Assembly (NCBI GenBank): GCA_945918795.1
Contig: CAMEIT010000019.1
Location: forward strand, 1-36,044
DNA length: 36,044 nucleotides
Direction: 5' to 3'
DNA from: an uncultured Clostridia bacterium
GTDB lineage: Bacteria > Bacillota > Clostridia > HGM11327
Shown: piece by piece, positions 12,487 to 18,548 of the stretch
How the letters are laid out: every line of letters starts with the position of its first letter
Position numbering within the stretch: the stretch's first letter is position 1
Made by a program: the position numbers and the translations under genes
The notes under the pieces: generated by a model
What the model was told of the DNA's origin: nothing
Seen by the model: the letters and a program-made list of their open reading frames with translations, nothing else
Database searches by the model: none

Positions 12487-14247
12487 ATGAGCACAGATAC
12501 GCTTGATTTTTCAAATCTGGAAAAAAACAGTCTTCAGATGTTGCAGAAATTTGCCAAGGAGAGCCTGCACATTCGCAGTGTTACAACATACAGAAAGCCT
12601 CAGCTTATCGAATTGATACAGCAGAAGCTGCAAACAGAATCGCAGCAGCAGCAAAAAGAAGCAGCACAGGCAAACAGCAGGCAGGAGAGAGACGCTGAGC
12701 CTCAACGACGTCAAAGAGACATGGATGAAACACGTCAGCAGAGAGATATGGACGATACATGTCAACAAAGAGATGTAAACGATGTACGTTCATCAAGAGA
12801 ATATGATGACGTGCGCTCTGCAAGGGACTATGACGATGTGCGTTCACCGAGAGATTACGATGATATGCGCAACATATCGGATAATACCATGCCCGAGCAG
12901 AGAACGTATAATCAGCCTTACAATTCATATTCAAGCGAGCCTAAAGACAACGATTACCGTATGAGACAAAACCGCGACTGGCCTCAAACTCAGGGTACGT
13001 ACGGAAGATATAAGCCGCGCAATACGGACAGAGGCAATGCACCGTCTATGTATAATCCTCAGGAAAGAACAACTGTCAAAGCGGACGGTATTCTCGAAAT
13101 AATGCCCGACGGCTTTGGATTTTTGCGTGCTCAGAATTGCTATACAAGCGATAAGGACGTTTATGTGAGCGCAAACTTCATAAAAAGAGTAGGCTTGAGA
13201 TCAGGCGACCATATAACGGGATTGTCTCAGATCATACGCACAAACGAAAAATTCCCGTCACTTTTCCAGATCGATATAATTAACGGCAGAAGGCTCGACG
13301 AGTGCAGACGCAGACCTAATTTTGATTCTTTGACGCCTATATATCCCGATTCGAGAATAACTCTTGAAATATCGGACACGGAAAATGAACTCTCGACAAG
13401 AATAATCGACCTTATCTCCCCAATAGGAAAAGGTCAAAGAGGCCTCATTGTTTCTCCGCCGAAAGCAGGCAAAACGACTCTGCTCAAACAGATAGCAAAC
13501 GGCATAACAAAGAATCACCCCGATATAAAGCTCATAATTCTCCTTATAGACGAGCGTCCCGAGGAGGTTACGGATATTCAGCGTTCTACAAACGCCAATG
13601 TAATATTCTCCACATTTGACGAGCATCCCGAGCACCATGCAAAGGTTGCGGAAATGATACTCGAGCACAGCAAGAGACTTGTTGAATCGGGAGACGATGT
13701 TGTAATTCTCCTTGACAGCATTACAAGACTTGCGCGTTCGTATAACCTTATTGTTCCGGCATCGGGCAGAGCACTTTCGGGCGGACTTGACCCGACGGCT
13801 CTTTTCAAGCCCAAAAAGTTTTTCGGCGCCGCACGAAACATAGAAAACGGCGGCAGTCTCACAATTCTTGCCACTCCCCTAATAGAAACCGGCAGCCGCA
13901 TGCATGACGTTATTTTCGAAGAATTTAAGGGCACGGGCAATATGGAGATTCATCTGAACAGAAAACTCTCCGAAAGAAGAATTTTCCCGGCATTTGACCT
14001 CAATAAGTCGGGAACGCGCCATGATGACCTCCTTTTGTCAAAATCCGAGTTTGCCGCTATGCAGACAATGCGCAGAAATCTCGCCGAGGGTAAGACAGAC
14101 AAGGTTACTGAGCTTATAATAAACGGACTTGCAAAAACAAAGAACAATACTCAGTTTATATCGATACTCAATGACGCTTTGGCTGAAGCCGAAAAGGCAA
14201 GCTCTACGCTTGATGACGATGCGATATTGGGCAATTCATTTGCCTGA
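12487..14247 (+). CDS. rho: Transcription termination factor Rho with repetitive N-terminal insertion
   Basis: Rho is a hexameric RNA helicase that ends transcription. Residues 6-50 are the Rho N-terminal (SAP-like) helices, about 196-270 the cold-shock RNA-binding domain (ILEIMPDGFGFLRAQNCYTS), and 300 onward the ATPase with P-loop SPPKAGKTTLLK and Walker B VVILLDSITRLARSYN. Between them, residues 50-195 are a disordered insertion rich in Gln, Arg, Asp and Tyr. It contains six tandem 9-residue units (residues 76-129, bases 12712-12873), such as QRDMDETRQ and ARDYDDVRS. Insertions here are known in Clostridia, Actinobacteria and Bacteroidetes, where some affect RNA binding, prion-like switching or condensates. 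The gene has a GGAG site and is followed after six bases by the fusion gene. Confidence 0.96.
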   Translation: MSTDTLDFSNLEKNSLQMLQKFAKESLHIRSVTTYRKPQLIELIQQKLQTESQQQQKEAAQANSRQERDAEPQRRQRDMDETRQQRDMDDTCQQRDVNDVRSSREYDDVRSARDYDDVRSPRDYDDMRNISDNTMPEQRTYNQPYNSYSSEPKDNDYRMRQNRDWPQTQGTYGRYKPRNTDRGNAPSMYNPQERTTVKADGILEIMPDGFGFLRAQNCYTSDKDVYVSANFIKRVGLRSGDHITGLSQIIRTNEKFPSLFQIDIINGRRLDECRRRPNFDSLTPIYPDSRITLEISDTENELSTRIIDLISPIGKGQRGLIVSPPKAGKTTLLKQIANGITKNHPDIKLIILLIDERPEEVTDIQRSTNANVIFSTFDEHPEHHAKVAEMILEHSKRLVESGDDVVILLDSITRLARSYNLIVPASGRALSGGLDPTALFKPKKFFGAARNIENGGSLTILATPLIETGSRMHDVIFEEFKGTGNMEIHLNRKLSERRIFPAFDLNKSGTRHDDLLLSKSEFAAMQTMRRNLAEGKTDKVTELIINGLAKTKNNTQFISILNDALAEAEKASSTLDDDAILGNSFA

Positions 14248-14253
14248 AATGAT

Positions 14254-16113
14254 ATGATACTGATTATTTCAGCGCTGAAAGCGGAGGCTATGCCTTTAAT
14301 AGAAAGGCTTGCCCTCAAAAGAATCGATGCCGTTTTTCCGACGTATGCAAATGATGATTTTGTGCTCGTCATATGCGGAGTCGGCACGGAAAAATGTGCC
14401 GCCGCTACCGGCTGGGCCTTCGGGCACTTTGCGAACATTATCGGTGCGATAAATATCGGCTGTGCCGGATACGGCGATGATGCAATCGATTACGGCAAGC
14501 TTTTTGTCGCGAACATTGTTGAGCATGAAAGCAAATCGAGAGCATATGTGCCTGACATACTGTATAAGCATAGCTTATGCGAGTGCAGGCTTCTGACGTT
14601 TGATGAAGAAGTGCGCAATTACAACGCCAAAGCAGAGAATACGCTGTTTGATATGGAAGCTTATGGGTTCGTATCTGCCGCATTTTGCTTTCTAACGAAT
14701 GATAAATGTGCTTGCCTTAAATTTGCTTTGGACGATGTTCATAAAAATATTTTGGTTTCAAAGGAAGAATTGTGCAAACTGTCCGAGAGCGTGGCAGATG
14801 ATGTAATCGGGTTTGTATTCAATTTCAAAGCTTACTGTGAGGCTTCCTCAAAAACGGAGCAGGAAGATATTCTAACGAATGTTATAGACACTGTTTCGAA
14901 TCGCTATTCTCTTACGGAATCAAGACGGAACATATTAAAGAAAGAGCTTCACAATACTCACGTATATTATAATACGGTACCCGATCTGAACTTGTTGCCC
15001 GAGCTTCAAGGCACACAGAAAAAACATTCCGCGGCAGCTTTTGAAGAACTGCTCGGCAACATGAGGAATAATATAAATTGCATCGACTGCCCGAAACGGG
15101 AGCAGGAGACGGATTTTGGTCGCAGCTGCTTCAGACATATATATGTTGAGAGAGAAATTCTTGATACCGAGTATGTGCAGTCCGTAATATCGAAGTTCAA
15201 AAATGCAAACATTGTTCCCGTGCCGGATTATAAATCCGTTTTCAACAGAAAAAAACAGAATGCTTTGAATCAGCTTCAAAACAAGAATCTTATACTTGCA
15301 AAGGCTCACGGAGCATTGCTTTATAAAGGTTCCGATTACTGCAACGCATTCGGGTTTGAAAAATTTTATTATTGTTCGACTGTTATGGGTTGCATATACG
15401 GGTGCAGGTACTGTTATTTGCAGGGAATGTACAGCTCGTCAAACATTGTGGCGTTTGTCAATACAGAAGATTTTTTTGAAGAAATAAACAAGGTTGATGA
15501 CGGAACCGGTTTTTTTGTATGCTGTTCATATGACTCGGATATACTCGCGCTGGACAAGATTCTCAACACGGTGGAAAAGTGGCTTGATTTTGCCGAATCA
15601 AAGCCAAACATAACGTTTGAGATACGCACGAAATCGGTAGGCATTTCATCGCTTTTGAATAGAAAGCCCGTTGAAAATGTCATAATCGCTTATACGCTTT
15701 CACCCGAGAGCGTAAGAAGAAAATTCGAGCTGTATACGCCGTCGATATCGAAAAGACTTTCCGCCGCCGAGCGCTTATTACAGCATGGGTGGCGCGTGAG
15801 AGTTTGCATTGAGCCTGTTCTGGCGCCCGTTGTAAATGAAAAGGATTATTTTGCGCTCGCTGATGAAATCATAAAAAGTGCCGCAACAAACCGATTTGAG
15901 GACATTGTTGTAGGCGAATTCAGAATGAACGGAAAATATTTTCAGCAAATATCGTCACTTCACAAGGAGTGCCCTCTGTTTGCAAATCCTTATATATCAT
16001 ATCGTGGCACGGCGGCGTTTTATGACGGCTCAAAAGAGTGCGTTTTGCGCATTTCTGAGCATATAAAGCAAAAAACAGGATTGAAAGTGATATGTTTTCA
16101 GTCCGATTTGTAA
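14254..16113 (+). CDS. Fusion: MTA/SAH nucleosidase-like domain + SPL-like radical SAM domain
   Basis: Residues 1-190 resemble MTA/SAH nucleosidase (Pfs): start MILIISALKAEAMPLIE with Glu11 at the position of catalytic Glu12, GVGTEKCAAATGWA, the CAGYGDDAIDYGKLFVANIV loop, FDMEAYGFV (Met134, Glu135), and ALDDV (Asp160/161) at the catalytic-Asp position. Residues 190-300 are a linker with CIDCP. Residues 300-619 are spore photoproduct lyase-like radical SAM: CIYGCRYCYLQG holds the CxxxCxxC ligands Cys380, Cys384 and Cys387. The H-donor Cys141 of Bacillus SplB is not exactly matched; Cys423-Cys424 lie nearby. Radical SAM reactions yield 5'-deoxyadenosine, which Pfs cleaves, so the domains may work together (inference). 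The usual SplB has about 340 residues. No clear RBS; translation is probably coupled to rho. Confidence 0.85.
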   Translation: MILIISALKAEAMPLIERLALKRIDAVFPTYANDDFVLVICGVGTEKCAAATGWAFGHFANIIGAINIGCAGYGDDAIDYGKLFVANIVEHESKSRAYVPDILYKHSLCECRLLTFDEEVRNYNAKAENTLFDMEAYGFVSAAFCFLTNDKCACLKFALDDVHKNILVSKEELCKLSESVADDVIGFVFNFKAYCEASSKTEQEDILTNVIDTVSNRYSLTESRRNILKKELHNTHVYYNTVPDLNLLPELQGTQKKHSAAAFEELLGNMRNNINCIDCPKREQETDFGRSCFRHIYVEREILDTEYVQSVISKFKNANIVPVPDYKSVFNRKKQNALNQLQNKNLILAKAHGALLYKGSDYCNAFGFEKFYYCSTVMGCIYGCRYCYLQGMYSSSNIVAFVNTEDFFEEINKVDDGTGFFVCCSYDSDILALDKILNTVEKWLDFAESKPNITFEIRTKSVGISSLLNRKPVENVIIAYTLSPESVRRKFELYTPSISKRLSAAERLLQHGWRVRVCIEPVLAPVVNEKDYFALADEIIKSAATNRFEDIVVGEFRMNGKYFQQISSLHKECPLFANPYISYRGTAAFYDGSKECVLRISEHIKQKTGLKVICFQSDL

Positions 16114-16401: not shown

Positions 16402-17928
16402 ATGAAAAAAGCGTTAAAATTTATATTCAGCTCGACTATATTTTTAATTGCAAGTGCAGTCTCTGTATTGATGATTGTATTCTTATTCCACCTCATTCCG
16501 GAACAAAATACATATGCGAATGTTGACCCGTCCGGGGTGACGGATGACGAAAACATAATTATCCAAGTTCCCGAGGAAAATGTTCCGTCGGCAACAAACG
16601 GAATCGAAACTCAGCCGGAAGCAAGCTTTGAACCTCTTATTGATGCGTACAAGATTATTATTGACGGCTCTGTTGCGGGAATTGTTACAGATGCCAATGC
16701 AGTCGAAAATATAATACACGATATGCAGGAAGAATATGAATTAAATGCAAATGTGAACAATACTATCTGCGAGCTGTCAAAGACAATTACCGTCGAAAAG
16801 ATGCAGACGTATTCACACAATATTACCGAAAACAGCCTTATTGAAAACGCCATTGCCGAATGTGTTTCTTTTAAGATGAATGCGTTTGAATTGAGTATCG
16901 ACGGATTTATCATAGGCTATTTTGAGACGGAGGAAGAATGCTCGGATATACTTAAATCGGCGCAGGATAAATTTTTGAAAACGAATTTTGCCGGCAAGAC
17001 TGTGCTCGGCATATCTTACGATAAAACATTTGATGTAGCATCCGTTCAAATATATAAAGAAGAGCTTGATACGGTAACTTATAACGATGCGGTGGATATT
17101 ATTTTAAGCGAGAGAGATGTTGAAAAGAAAGTGTCTGTTGCCTCTGAGGCAGAGCTTGCCAATGTTTTCAACAGTAAGGCCGTATCTGATTCATGTGACT
17201 ATAATGAGATTTTAACCGCGGTTAACGAGAGTGGATCCGCGTTTGTTTATTATAATGAGAGAATAGTGAATTTCAATGTAACTGTTCAGTCTGTAAAAAC
17301 TTCTCCGATTGCATATAATACCGAATACAGAGCAAATACGTCATTATCATATACGACCTCGAAGGTCGTCAGAAACGGTACGACAGGAACCAAAACATAT
17401 ACATATTCCGATGAATATGTAAACGGTGAATGCGTTTCTTCCAAGCTTACATCGGAAAAAATCACGACCCAGCCTGTAAGCGCTATAATCGAATACGGCA
17501 CACGACTTCCGCTTCGTACAACCGTTAAAGCACTCACGGGCAAGGGTATGTTCATATGGCCTTCCACAGGCTTTATTACAAGTCATTTTGCTTACGTTCA
17601 AGGCAAAGGCGGTCACACGGGAATAGATATTGCGAATGTATCGGGAACACCTATATATGCTTCCGCGGCGGGAACTGTTAAAACGGCGATAAGCGGAGAT
17701 TCCATATACGGAAATTATGTTACGATTACGCATTCTAACGGGTACGAGACGCAATATGCACATATGTTGAGGTATGTTGTCAAGCCGGGACAGTATGTCC
17801 GGCAGGGACAAATTATAGGCTATGTCGGTATGACGGGAATTGCAACGGGCAATCATCTCCATTTTTCTATCAGACTGAACGGAAAGCTTATTGACCCGAC
17901 AACCATGCTTTACGGATATGCTTCTTGA
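16402..17928 (+). CDS. Membrane-anchored G5 domain / M23 peptidoglycan endopeptidase
   Basis: A cell-wall hydrolase expected to cut peptide cross-links outside the membrane. Residues 8-31 form a membrane anchor. Residues 83-110 and 162-190 are two related repeats (YKIIIDGSVAGIVTDANA and FELSIDGFIIGYFETEEE) typical of clostridial M23 proteins. Residues about 295-367 form a G5 domain (EYRANTSLSYTTSKVVRNGT...). Residues 385-505 are the LytM/M23 domain with zinc ligands His405 and Asp409 (GGHTGIDIA) and His487 (NHLHFSI), plus His454 (YAHM); the active site is complete, unlike Bacillus SpoIIQ. In a spore former such a protein may act in engulfment or in vegetative wall turnover; nothing here decides it. 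Confidence 0.92.
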   Translation: MKKALKFIFSSTIFLIASAVSVLMIVFLFHLIPEQNTYANVDPSGVTDDENIIIQVPEENVPSATNGIETQPEASFEPLIDAYKIIIDGSVAGIVTDANAVENIIHDMQEEYELNANVNNTICELSKTITVEKMQTYSHNITENSLIENAIAECVSFKMNAFELSIDGFIIGYFETEEECSDILKSAQDKFLKTNFAGKTVLGISYDKTFDVASVQIYKEELDTVTYNDAVDIILSERDVEKKVSVASEAELANVFNSKAVSDSCDYNEILTAVNESGSAFVYYNERIVNFNVTVQSVKTSPIAYNTEYRANTSLSYTTSKVVRNGTTGTKTYTYSDEYVNGECVSSKLTSEKITTQPVSAIIEYGTRLPLRTTVKALTGKGMFIWPSTGFITSHFAYVQGKGGHTGIDIANVSGTPIYASAAGTVKTAISGDSIYGNYVTITHSNGYETQYAHMLRYVVKPGQYVRQGQIIGYVGMTGIATGNHLHFSIRLNGKLIDPTTMLYGYAS

Positions 17929-18056
17929 TGTGATTTGTCAAGCTATATTTTATCAGTGCAGATCGATCCGATTTTGATGCTTGCGGATATTTTATCGGAT
18001 TATGCAGGAAAGGAAAGTGTTGCTCAGAATAAGCGATGCTTTTTGAGGTTATTGAA

Positions 18057-18548
18057 ATGAAACGAAAGAGATATACATCTTTATATTTATCGGAATCGCT
18101 TTTTTTGATTCTGTTTTTTGCGGCGATAATCACCGTACAGATAATATTTTATATACGTTATATTGACGGCACCGATAAGGTCAGACCGTCAACTCCGGGA
18201 GATCTTCTTCCATCCGCGATTTTGCTTATACTGATAGTTTTTGTTGTTCTGTATATGCTGTGCAGATTTGTTTGCTTTGATGACAAAGGCGTTTATTACA
18301 AGCACTTAAAAAAGTCGTATTTTATTCCGTGGGAAGATGTGCGTTACGTTAAGATCACATTGAATGCAAATGATAAAGTCGGCTTTGGCTCTTATATTGT
18401 AATTGCGACAGATCAGTACGCTCTGCAATATACCGATTTCAGGGCTTCGCGTGAGAACTTTATTGTTTTGCGTTACAGAATTTCTGCATTGGATTTTATA
18501 AAAAAGCATTATAACGGAGAAATCATAAGAGCGGGTTCTGTTCGATGA
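18057..18548 (+). CDS. Small two-helix membrane protein with PH-like domain
   Basis: Two hydrophobic helices (about residues 11-31 and 53-75) are followed by a soluble tail with the pattern VYYKHLKKSYFIPWEDVRYV, typical of bacterial PH-like domains appended to membrane hairpins. No specific function is known. I prefer the ATG at 18057 over an in-frame ATG at 18036, because GAGG at 18045-18048 lies eight bases before it. It follows the M23 gene by 128 bases and ends at a strong terminator, so the two may share a transcript. Confidence 0.7.
   Translation: MKRKRYTSLYLSESLFLILFFAAIITVQIIFYIRYIDGTDKVRPSTPGDLLPSAILLILIVFVVLYMLCRFVCFDDKGVYYKHLKKSYFIPWEDVRYVKITLNANDKVGFGSYIVIATDQYALQYTDFRASRENFIVLRYRISALDFIKKHYNGEIIRAGSVR

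Follow-up and report, generated by a model that had tools for sequence, protein, structure and literature searches.

Removal of the 5'-deoxyadenosine of radical SAM enzymes is usually attributed to one housekeeping nucleosidase that they share. This compound inhibits radical SAM enzymes and can be cleaved by nucleosidase (PMC6079011, PMC8102628). In rats, 5-deoxyribose is reduced to 5-deoxyribitol, and a 5-deoxyribose salvage cluster, comprising a kinase, the isomerase DrdI and the aldolase DrdA, resembles the role proposed for the locus described here in that its genes dispose of a radical SAM by-product (PMC6079011); that cluster, however, acts after the nucleosidase, on 5-deoxyribose, and includes neither a radical SAM gene nor a short-chain dehydrogenase (SDR). 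For the spore photoproduct lyase (SPL) of B. subtilis, it has been proposed that each cycle closes with the regeneration of SAM (PMC5368176), and a true SPL would therefore have little need of a nucleosidase acting on 5'-deoxyadenosine.

In the window (the whole 36,044-nucleotide stretch analyzed, from an uncultured Clostridia bacterium), one unbroken frame with an ATG start and no internal stop encodes a 619-residue protein, in which a nucleosidase-like domain precedes an SPL-like radical SAM domain (Table 1). The start codon lies 6 nt past the stop codon of rho. Full-length fusions with 44-49% identity are encoded by two congeners (sister species G001 and G002), directly 3' of rho in both as well. 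An AlphaFold2 model of the whole chain, computed from 91 aligned sequences of the window and the loci, reached a pLDDT of 93.2 and a pTM of 0.88, with residues 285-290 of the linker as the sole low-confidence stretch. The initial annotation had placed both activities in one 619-residue chain, and this description stands: the frame is single, both folds are matched, and Glu11, Met134-Glu135, Asp160 and the cysteines C380, C384 and C387 are all kept.

Table 1. Coordinates of the fusion gene, its parts and the gene preceding it in the window.
Feature	Position	Strand	Basis or remark
rho transcription termination factor	12487..14247	+	Followed by the fusion gene after 6 nt; both congeners share this order
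Whole fusion gene, nucleosidase-like and SPL-like radical SAM domains	14254..16113	+	Full-length homologs in G001 and G002
Nucleosidase (MTAN/PNP) domain, residues 1-199	14254..14850	+	Weak PF01048 match, MTAN fold match, secondary structure
Glu11, equivalent of MTAN Glu12	14284..14286	+	Invariant in nucleosidase alignment
V/Y-P-D-I-L loop, residues 98-103	14545..14562	+	Alignments; retained even in partners without the triad
Met134-Glu135, equivalent of MTAN Met173-Glu174	14653..14658	+	Alignment
Asp160, equivalent of MTAN Asp197 (general acid)	14731..14733	+	Alignments
Family-specific helical extension, residues 202-271	14857..15066	+	Models, alignment; kept in degenerate partners
Linker, residues 272-292, with non-conserved C276xxC279	15067..15129	+	Alignments, AlphaFold2 (confidence lowest at 285-290)
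SPL-like radical SAM domain, residues 293-619	15130..16110	+	PF20903, 55.6 bits; 4fhf fold match
Cys363, near-invariant (106/108)	15340..15342	+	Aligns with C74-type donor cysteine of clostridial SPL (PMC5368176)
CxxxCxxC [4Fe-4S] motif, C380, C384, C387; Tyr386 invariant	15391..15414	+	Alignment of 108 relatives
CCSYDSD, residues 423-429, region of SPL Cys141	15520..15540	+	Alignments

In other Clostridia, as well as in Fusobacteria, each half is encoded by a gene of its own, and the two genes lie next to or overlap each other. In a locus scan covering one genome per species and capped at the best 80 loci, the named ones came from Clostridium, Thermobrachium, Caloramator, Caldicoprobacter, many Lachnospiraceae, Fusobacteriaceae and one Thermodesulfobacteriaceae MAG. 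In 75 of the 77 loci with enough contig, the gene immediately upstream of the radical SAM gene is that of the nucleosidase. Of the 76 pairs measured, 73 are fused or overlapping, with 29 nt as the most frequent overlap (overlaps are counted to the most upstream possible start, and some true overlaps are shorter). Directly downstream of the radical SAM gene, 51 of 75 loci carry an SDR gene whose product has the S-Y-K triad. Clustering of the gene neighborhoods revealed no other recurrent partner that is nearly as frequent, with an ABC transporter present in 14 loci. The subgroup SDR was not found in the window's own genome, in which the search returned generic SDRs only (best score 124 bits).

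A search for further two-domain proteins, as the initial annotation had proposed, recovered not only the congeners but also G328 (625 aa), G136 (668 aa), L101 (687 aa) and Fusobacterium vincentii (623 aa, followed by an SDR gene). On the tree, five changes are needed to account for the fused state, of which well-supported branches alone force only two; fusion thus appears to have arisen about five times, in the genus of the window and in each of these four lineages. We regard the overlapping gene pair as a genuine partnership that is conserved and has apparently not been described before. Both domain families were already known, and the new part is their near-obligate pairing, their repeated fusion and the SDR as a third gene, for none of which did we find a paper in the open-access literature, a search that is not proof of absence.

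Several of the loci have peculiarities of their own. The fusion of Fusobacterium vincentii (L155, 4143-6014) belongs to a circular record of 2.1 Mb that was submitted as plasmid pSB055A and is probably a chromosome. In Fusobacterium mortiferum (L066, 5320-5976), a 218-aa ORF related to neither neighbor separates the nucleosidase and radical SAM genes, and in Caldicoprobacter (L005, 7-630), the gene beside the pair resembles, by eye, a PHP-type DNA-repair endonuclease (EndoQ/TIGR00375-like).

The N-terminal half shares with MTA/SAH nucleosidase (Pfs/MtnN; PF01048, TIGR01704) the fold and the equivalents of Glu12, Met173-Glu174 and Asp197. Its match to PNP_UDP_1 (PF01048) is weak (about 20.3-22.9 bits versus a cut-off of 25.1, residues 4-122); a stand-alone homolog (L006) scores 45.4 bits, above that cut-off, and does not pass TIGR01704. 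In Foldseek searches of the PDB with the model, MTA/SAH nucleosidases followed SPL, including 3dp9 (E 1.7e-11) and the short Chlamydia protein CT263 (TM 0.78 on target). Glu11, Met134-Glu135 and Asp160 are invariant across 10 aligned nucleosidases, and among the pooled loci, the exact E / ME / D set occurs in 89 of 100 full-length partners; Glu135 is present in all intact partners and the Met varies in a few. Unlike MTAN, the window nucleosidase has a core that is shorter by about 40 residues in the segment from the first Glu to Met-Glu (a trait of the short CT263 too), as well as extra C-terminal helices and a score below the TIGR01704 cut-off, and the gene or domain is tied to a radical SAM enzyme.

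The best NCBIfam match of this half is futalosine hydrolase MqnB (TIGR03664; 1e-6, residues 2-87), but it is partial and, at about 28 bits (28.3) versus a cut-off of 124.7, sub-threshold, on which grounds membership in that family was rejected; moreover, the radical SAM domain paired with it is of the SPL-like rather than the MqnE or MqnC type.

The C-terminal half is assigned to the SPL family by Pfam (PF20903, residues 296-551, 55.6 bits with a cut-off of 27), and its top match in the PDB is SPL 4fhf (TM 0.80 on target, 18% identity). Across 108 radical SAM relatives, C380, C384, C387 and Tyr386 are invariant, and the family has in common with SplB the radical SAM fold, the CxxxCxxC motif and the neighboring tyrosines. 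The low identity to the solved SPL sets it apart, as does the score against the SplB equivalog TIGR04070, 74.2 bits versus a cut-off of 400. The initial annotation had remarked that the H-donor Cys141 of SplB is not precisely conserved, and the comparisons agree: in an ungapped profile alignment, no Cys occupies the Cys141 position (B. subtilis numbering), where the Tyr of a near-invariant SYDxD is found instead. Position 423 is Cys in 96 of the 108 relatives and S, A, V, T or P in the other 12, and position 424 is mostly Val or Ile. The six clostridial SPLs in the comparison also lack a Cys at the Cys141 position.

Canonical MTAN/Pfs (TIGR01704) is encoded by 172 of the 391 genomes of the class and is rarer where the family occurs (16/54 versus 156/337, p = 0.026). 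Within the family genomes, Glu11, Glu135 or Asp160 has been lost in 5 of the 16 with Pfs and in none of the 38 without it, two of which are not fully readable (G017, owing to a frame break, and G190, which is masked); the corresponding p-value of 0.0014, like the pooled value given below, ignores kinship, the five genomes amounting to about three independent losses and the crude chance being nearer 0.03. Five more degenerate partners, from named genomes, are all accompanied by Pfs, but so are seven of nine intact controls, and this set alone is not discriminating. When all are pooled, the residues are lost in 10 Pfs-positive and 0 Pfs-negative genomes and kept in 22 and 40, respectively (p = 1.2e-4; about seven changes once the hand-picked named genomes are added). 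These counts are suggestive of triad loss tracking the presence of Pfs. Because the triad is lost in Pfs-positive genomes only, the partner and Pfs may share a substrate, which suggests that the partner nucleosidase cleaves 5'-deoxyadenosine, MTA or SAH, the substrates of Pfs. The window's own genome encodes a normal MTAN; the fused domain is therefore not its only nucleosidase but a dedicated copy.

Two nucleosidase loci deserve mention in this context. In Catonella morbi (L080, 5424-6026), the nucleosidase position is occupied by a 200-aa ORF without an HMM match, which resembles the helical C-terminal tail alone and is probably an extreme degenerate partner. In G017 (L010, 665-1332), the nucleosidase gene is split between one frame of 119 aa and another of 96 aa with all catalytic residues readable, and the break may reflect a frameshift, a sequencing error or decay.

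Given that 5'-deoxyadenosine inhibits radical SAM enzymes and that nucleosidase cleaves it, by-product clearing is the simplest account of this pairing, and we favor, with a probability of roughly 0.6, an SPL-derived radical SAM enzyme fused to a dedicated nucleosidase that clears 5'-deoxyadenosine. The [4Fe-4S] cluster of the C-terminal domain would reductively cleave SAM into methionine and the 5'-deoxyadenosyl radical, which would abstract a hydrogen from the substrate, so that SAM would be consumed and methionine and 5'-deoxyadenosine released. The N-terminal domain would then convert 5'-deoxyadenosine and water into adenine and 5-deoxyribose, as its fold, its residues and the Pfs pattern suggest, and removal of the inhibitor would keep the radical SAM enzyme turning over. 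More speculatively, the SDR of most relatives may reduce either the reaction product or the released 5-deoxyribose.

The initial annotation had likewise envisaged a self-clearing radical SAM enzyme, an idea that gains support from the conservation of the gene pair, from fusion on about five independent occasions, from the intact triad and from triad loss confined to Pfs-positive genomes. A fuller version, in which a SAM-consuming reaction outside spore repair is combined with on-site cleavage of 5'-deoxyadenosine and with reduction of toxic 5-deoxyribose to 5-deoxyribitol by the SDR, and in which fusion or overlap serves coupling or channeling, is conceivable, although we do not expect it to be correct. 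If by-product clearing is the true role, a near-obligate and repeatedly fused nucleosidase would mean that by-product removal can be built into the radical SAM enzyme, and would offer a model from nature for radical SAM catalysis with high turnover.

Alternatively, the nucleosidase, the radical SAM enzyme and the SDR could successively convert a nucleoside-derived metabolite within a biosynthetic or salvage pathway, one of whose own intermediates would be the substrate of the nucleosidase. Such a role would be in keeping with the three-gene operon and its frequent S-Y-K SDR, as well as with the nucleosidase scoring best, if weakly, against futalosine hydrolase, itself a pathway nucleosidase. 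However, repeated losses of the triad have left the radical SAM enzyme, and in some cases the SDR, in place, and an essential step would not be expected to vanish selectively where Pfs is present, which leaves the pathway role an improbable, if serious, contender.

Several partners lack the triad, some of them being reduced to 177-217 aa, yet the gene is still in place, and the partner therefore has a non-catalytic role as well. This could be its principal role: the nucleosidase would then serve the radical SAM enzyme as a subunit for docking or regulation, for instance by sensing adenine nucleosides, with catalysis secondary. The degenerate partners do retain the Tyr-Pro-Asp loop and the C-terminal helical extension, and one of them models well (pLDDT 92) and still matches MTAN/PNP folds. 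Nevertheless, Glu11, Glu135 and Asp160 are retained by about 90% of full-length partners and would be needless for pure docking, and we hold it quite unlikely that docking or regulation is the main function.

A further reading, which takes up the repair enzyme suggested by the initial annotation, is a self-clearing lyase for spore photoproduct (or thymine dimers). It draws on the SPL fold and PF20903 membership and on Cys363, which a profile-profile alignment pairs with a Cys that all six clostridial SPLs share and which may match Cys74, the donor in the SPL of C. acetobutylicum (PMC5368176); the window genome, in addition, contains two SASP genes and no SPL apart from the fusion. The distribution of the family, which is set sharply apart from other SPLs by its scores (E below 1e-89 versus about 1e-33) and is present in 54 of the 391 genomes of the class, tells a different story. 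SASP genes occur in 39 of the 54 genomes with the family and in 222 of the 337 without it, indicating no association between the two (p = 0.44). For canonical SPL, by contrast, the link to SASP genomes is strong (42/44, p = 2e-6). The family also occurs in Fusobacterium, which is not a spore former, and 10 of the 54 genomes carry it together with a canonical SPL. The C-terminal RSxKxGxxGxxKYVY segment, invariant in the aligned clostridial SPLs, has no counterpart in the family, and the SAM regeneration proposed for B. subtilis SPL (PMC5368176) would leave little 5'-deoxyadenosine to clear. On the SASP counts, we rejected a link of the family to sporulation, and together with the missing Cys141 position and C-terminal segment, the distribution makes a repair role very unlikely; the family is probably not a spore-DNA repair enzyme.

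Paired with a nucleosidase and often with an SDR, the proteins form an uncharacterized SPL-derived family that extends over about 14% of sampled Clostridia genomes and into fusobacteria. Many of its members are likely annotated as spore photoproduct lyase, a label that is probably wrong for them. A phage or defense origin was rejected as well, as the scan of viral contigs was empty and PADLOC gave no meaningful match. Homologs of the radical SAM half, 44-51% identical to that of L006, are present in two unannotated faecal records named 'Bacteriophage sp.' (MT835514.1, 28485-29480, and MT835770.1, 15431-16429), and may be either true phage cargo or mis-binned host DNA.

Although the halves are separate genes in most relatives, the possibility raised by the initial annotation that a frameshift or an assembly error joined two genes can be dismissed, because the same full-length fusion is present in two congeners and independent fusions are found in at least four other lineages. 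The CxxC that the same annotation pointed out in the linker (276-279) is indeed there in the window protein but is no feature of the family: in the alignment within the genus, it is missing from both congeners, on which basis a functional metal site was rejected, and the motif appears to be a species-specific detail.

The genes on either side of the fusion have features of their own. The product of rho contains a long charged insertion of near-repeats (RQQRDMDD and REYDDVRS units) at about residues 60-130, much of which is absent from Rho of the congeners. On the other side, at 16402-18548, an M23 peptidase with a G5 domain is followed by a 170-aa protein without a Pfam match, and the order of rho, the fusion gene and these two genes is the same in the congener G002 (L142).
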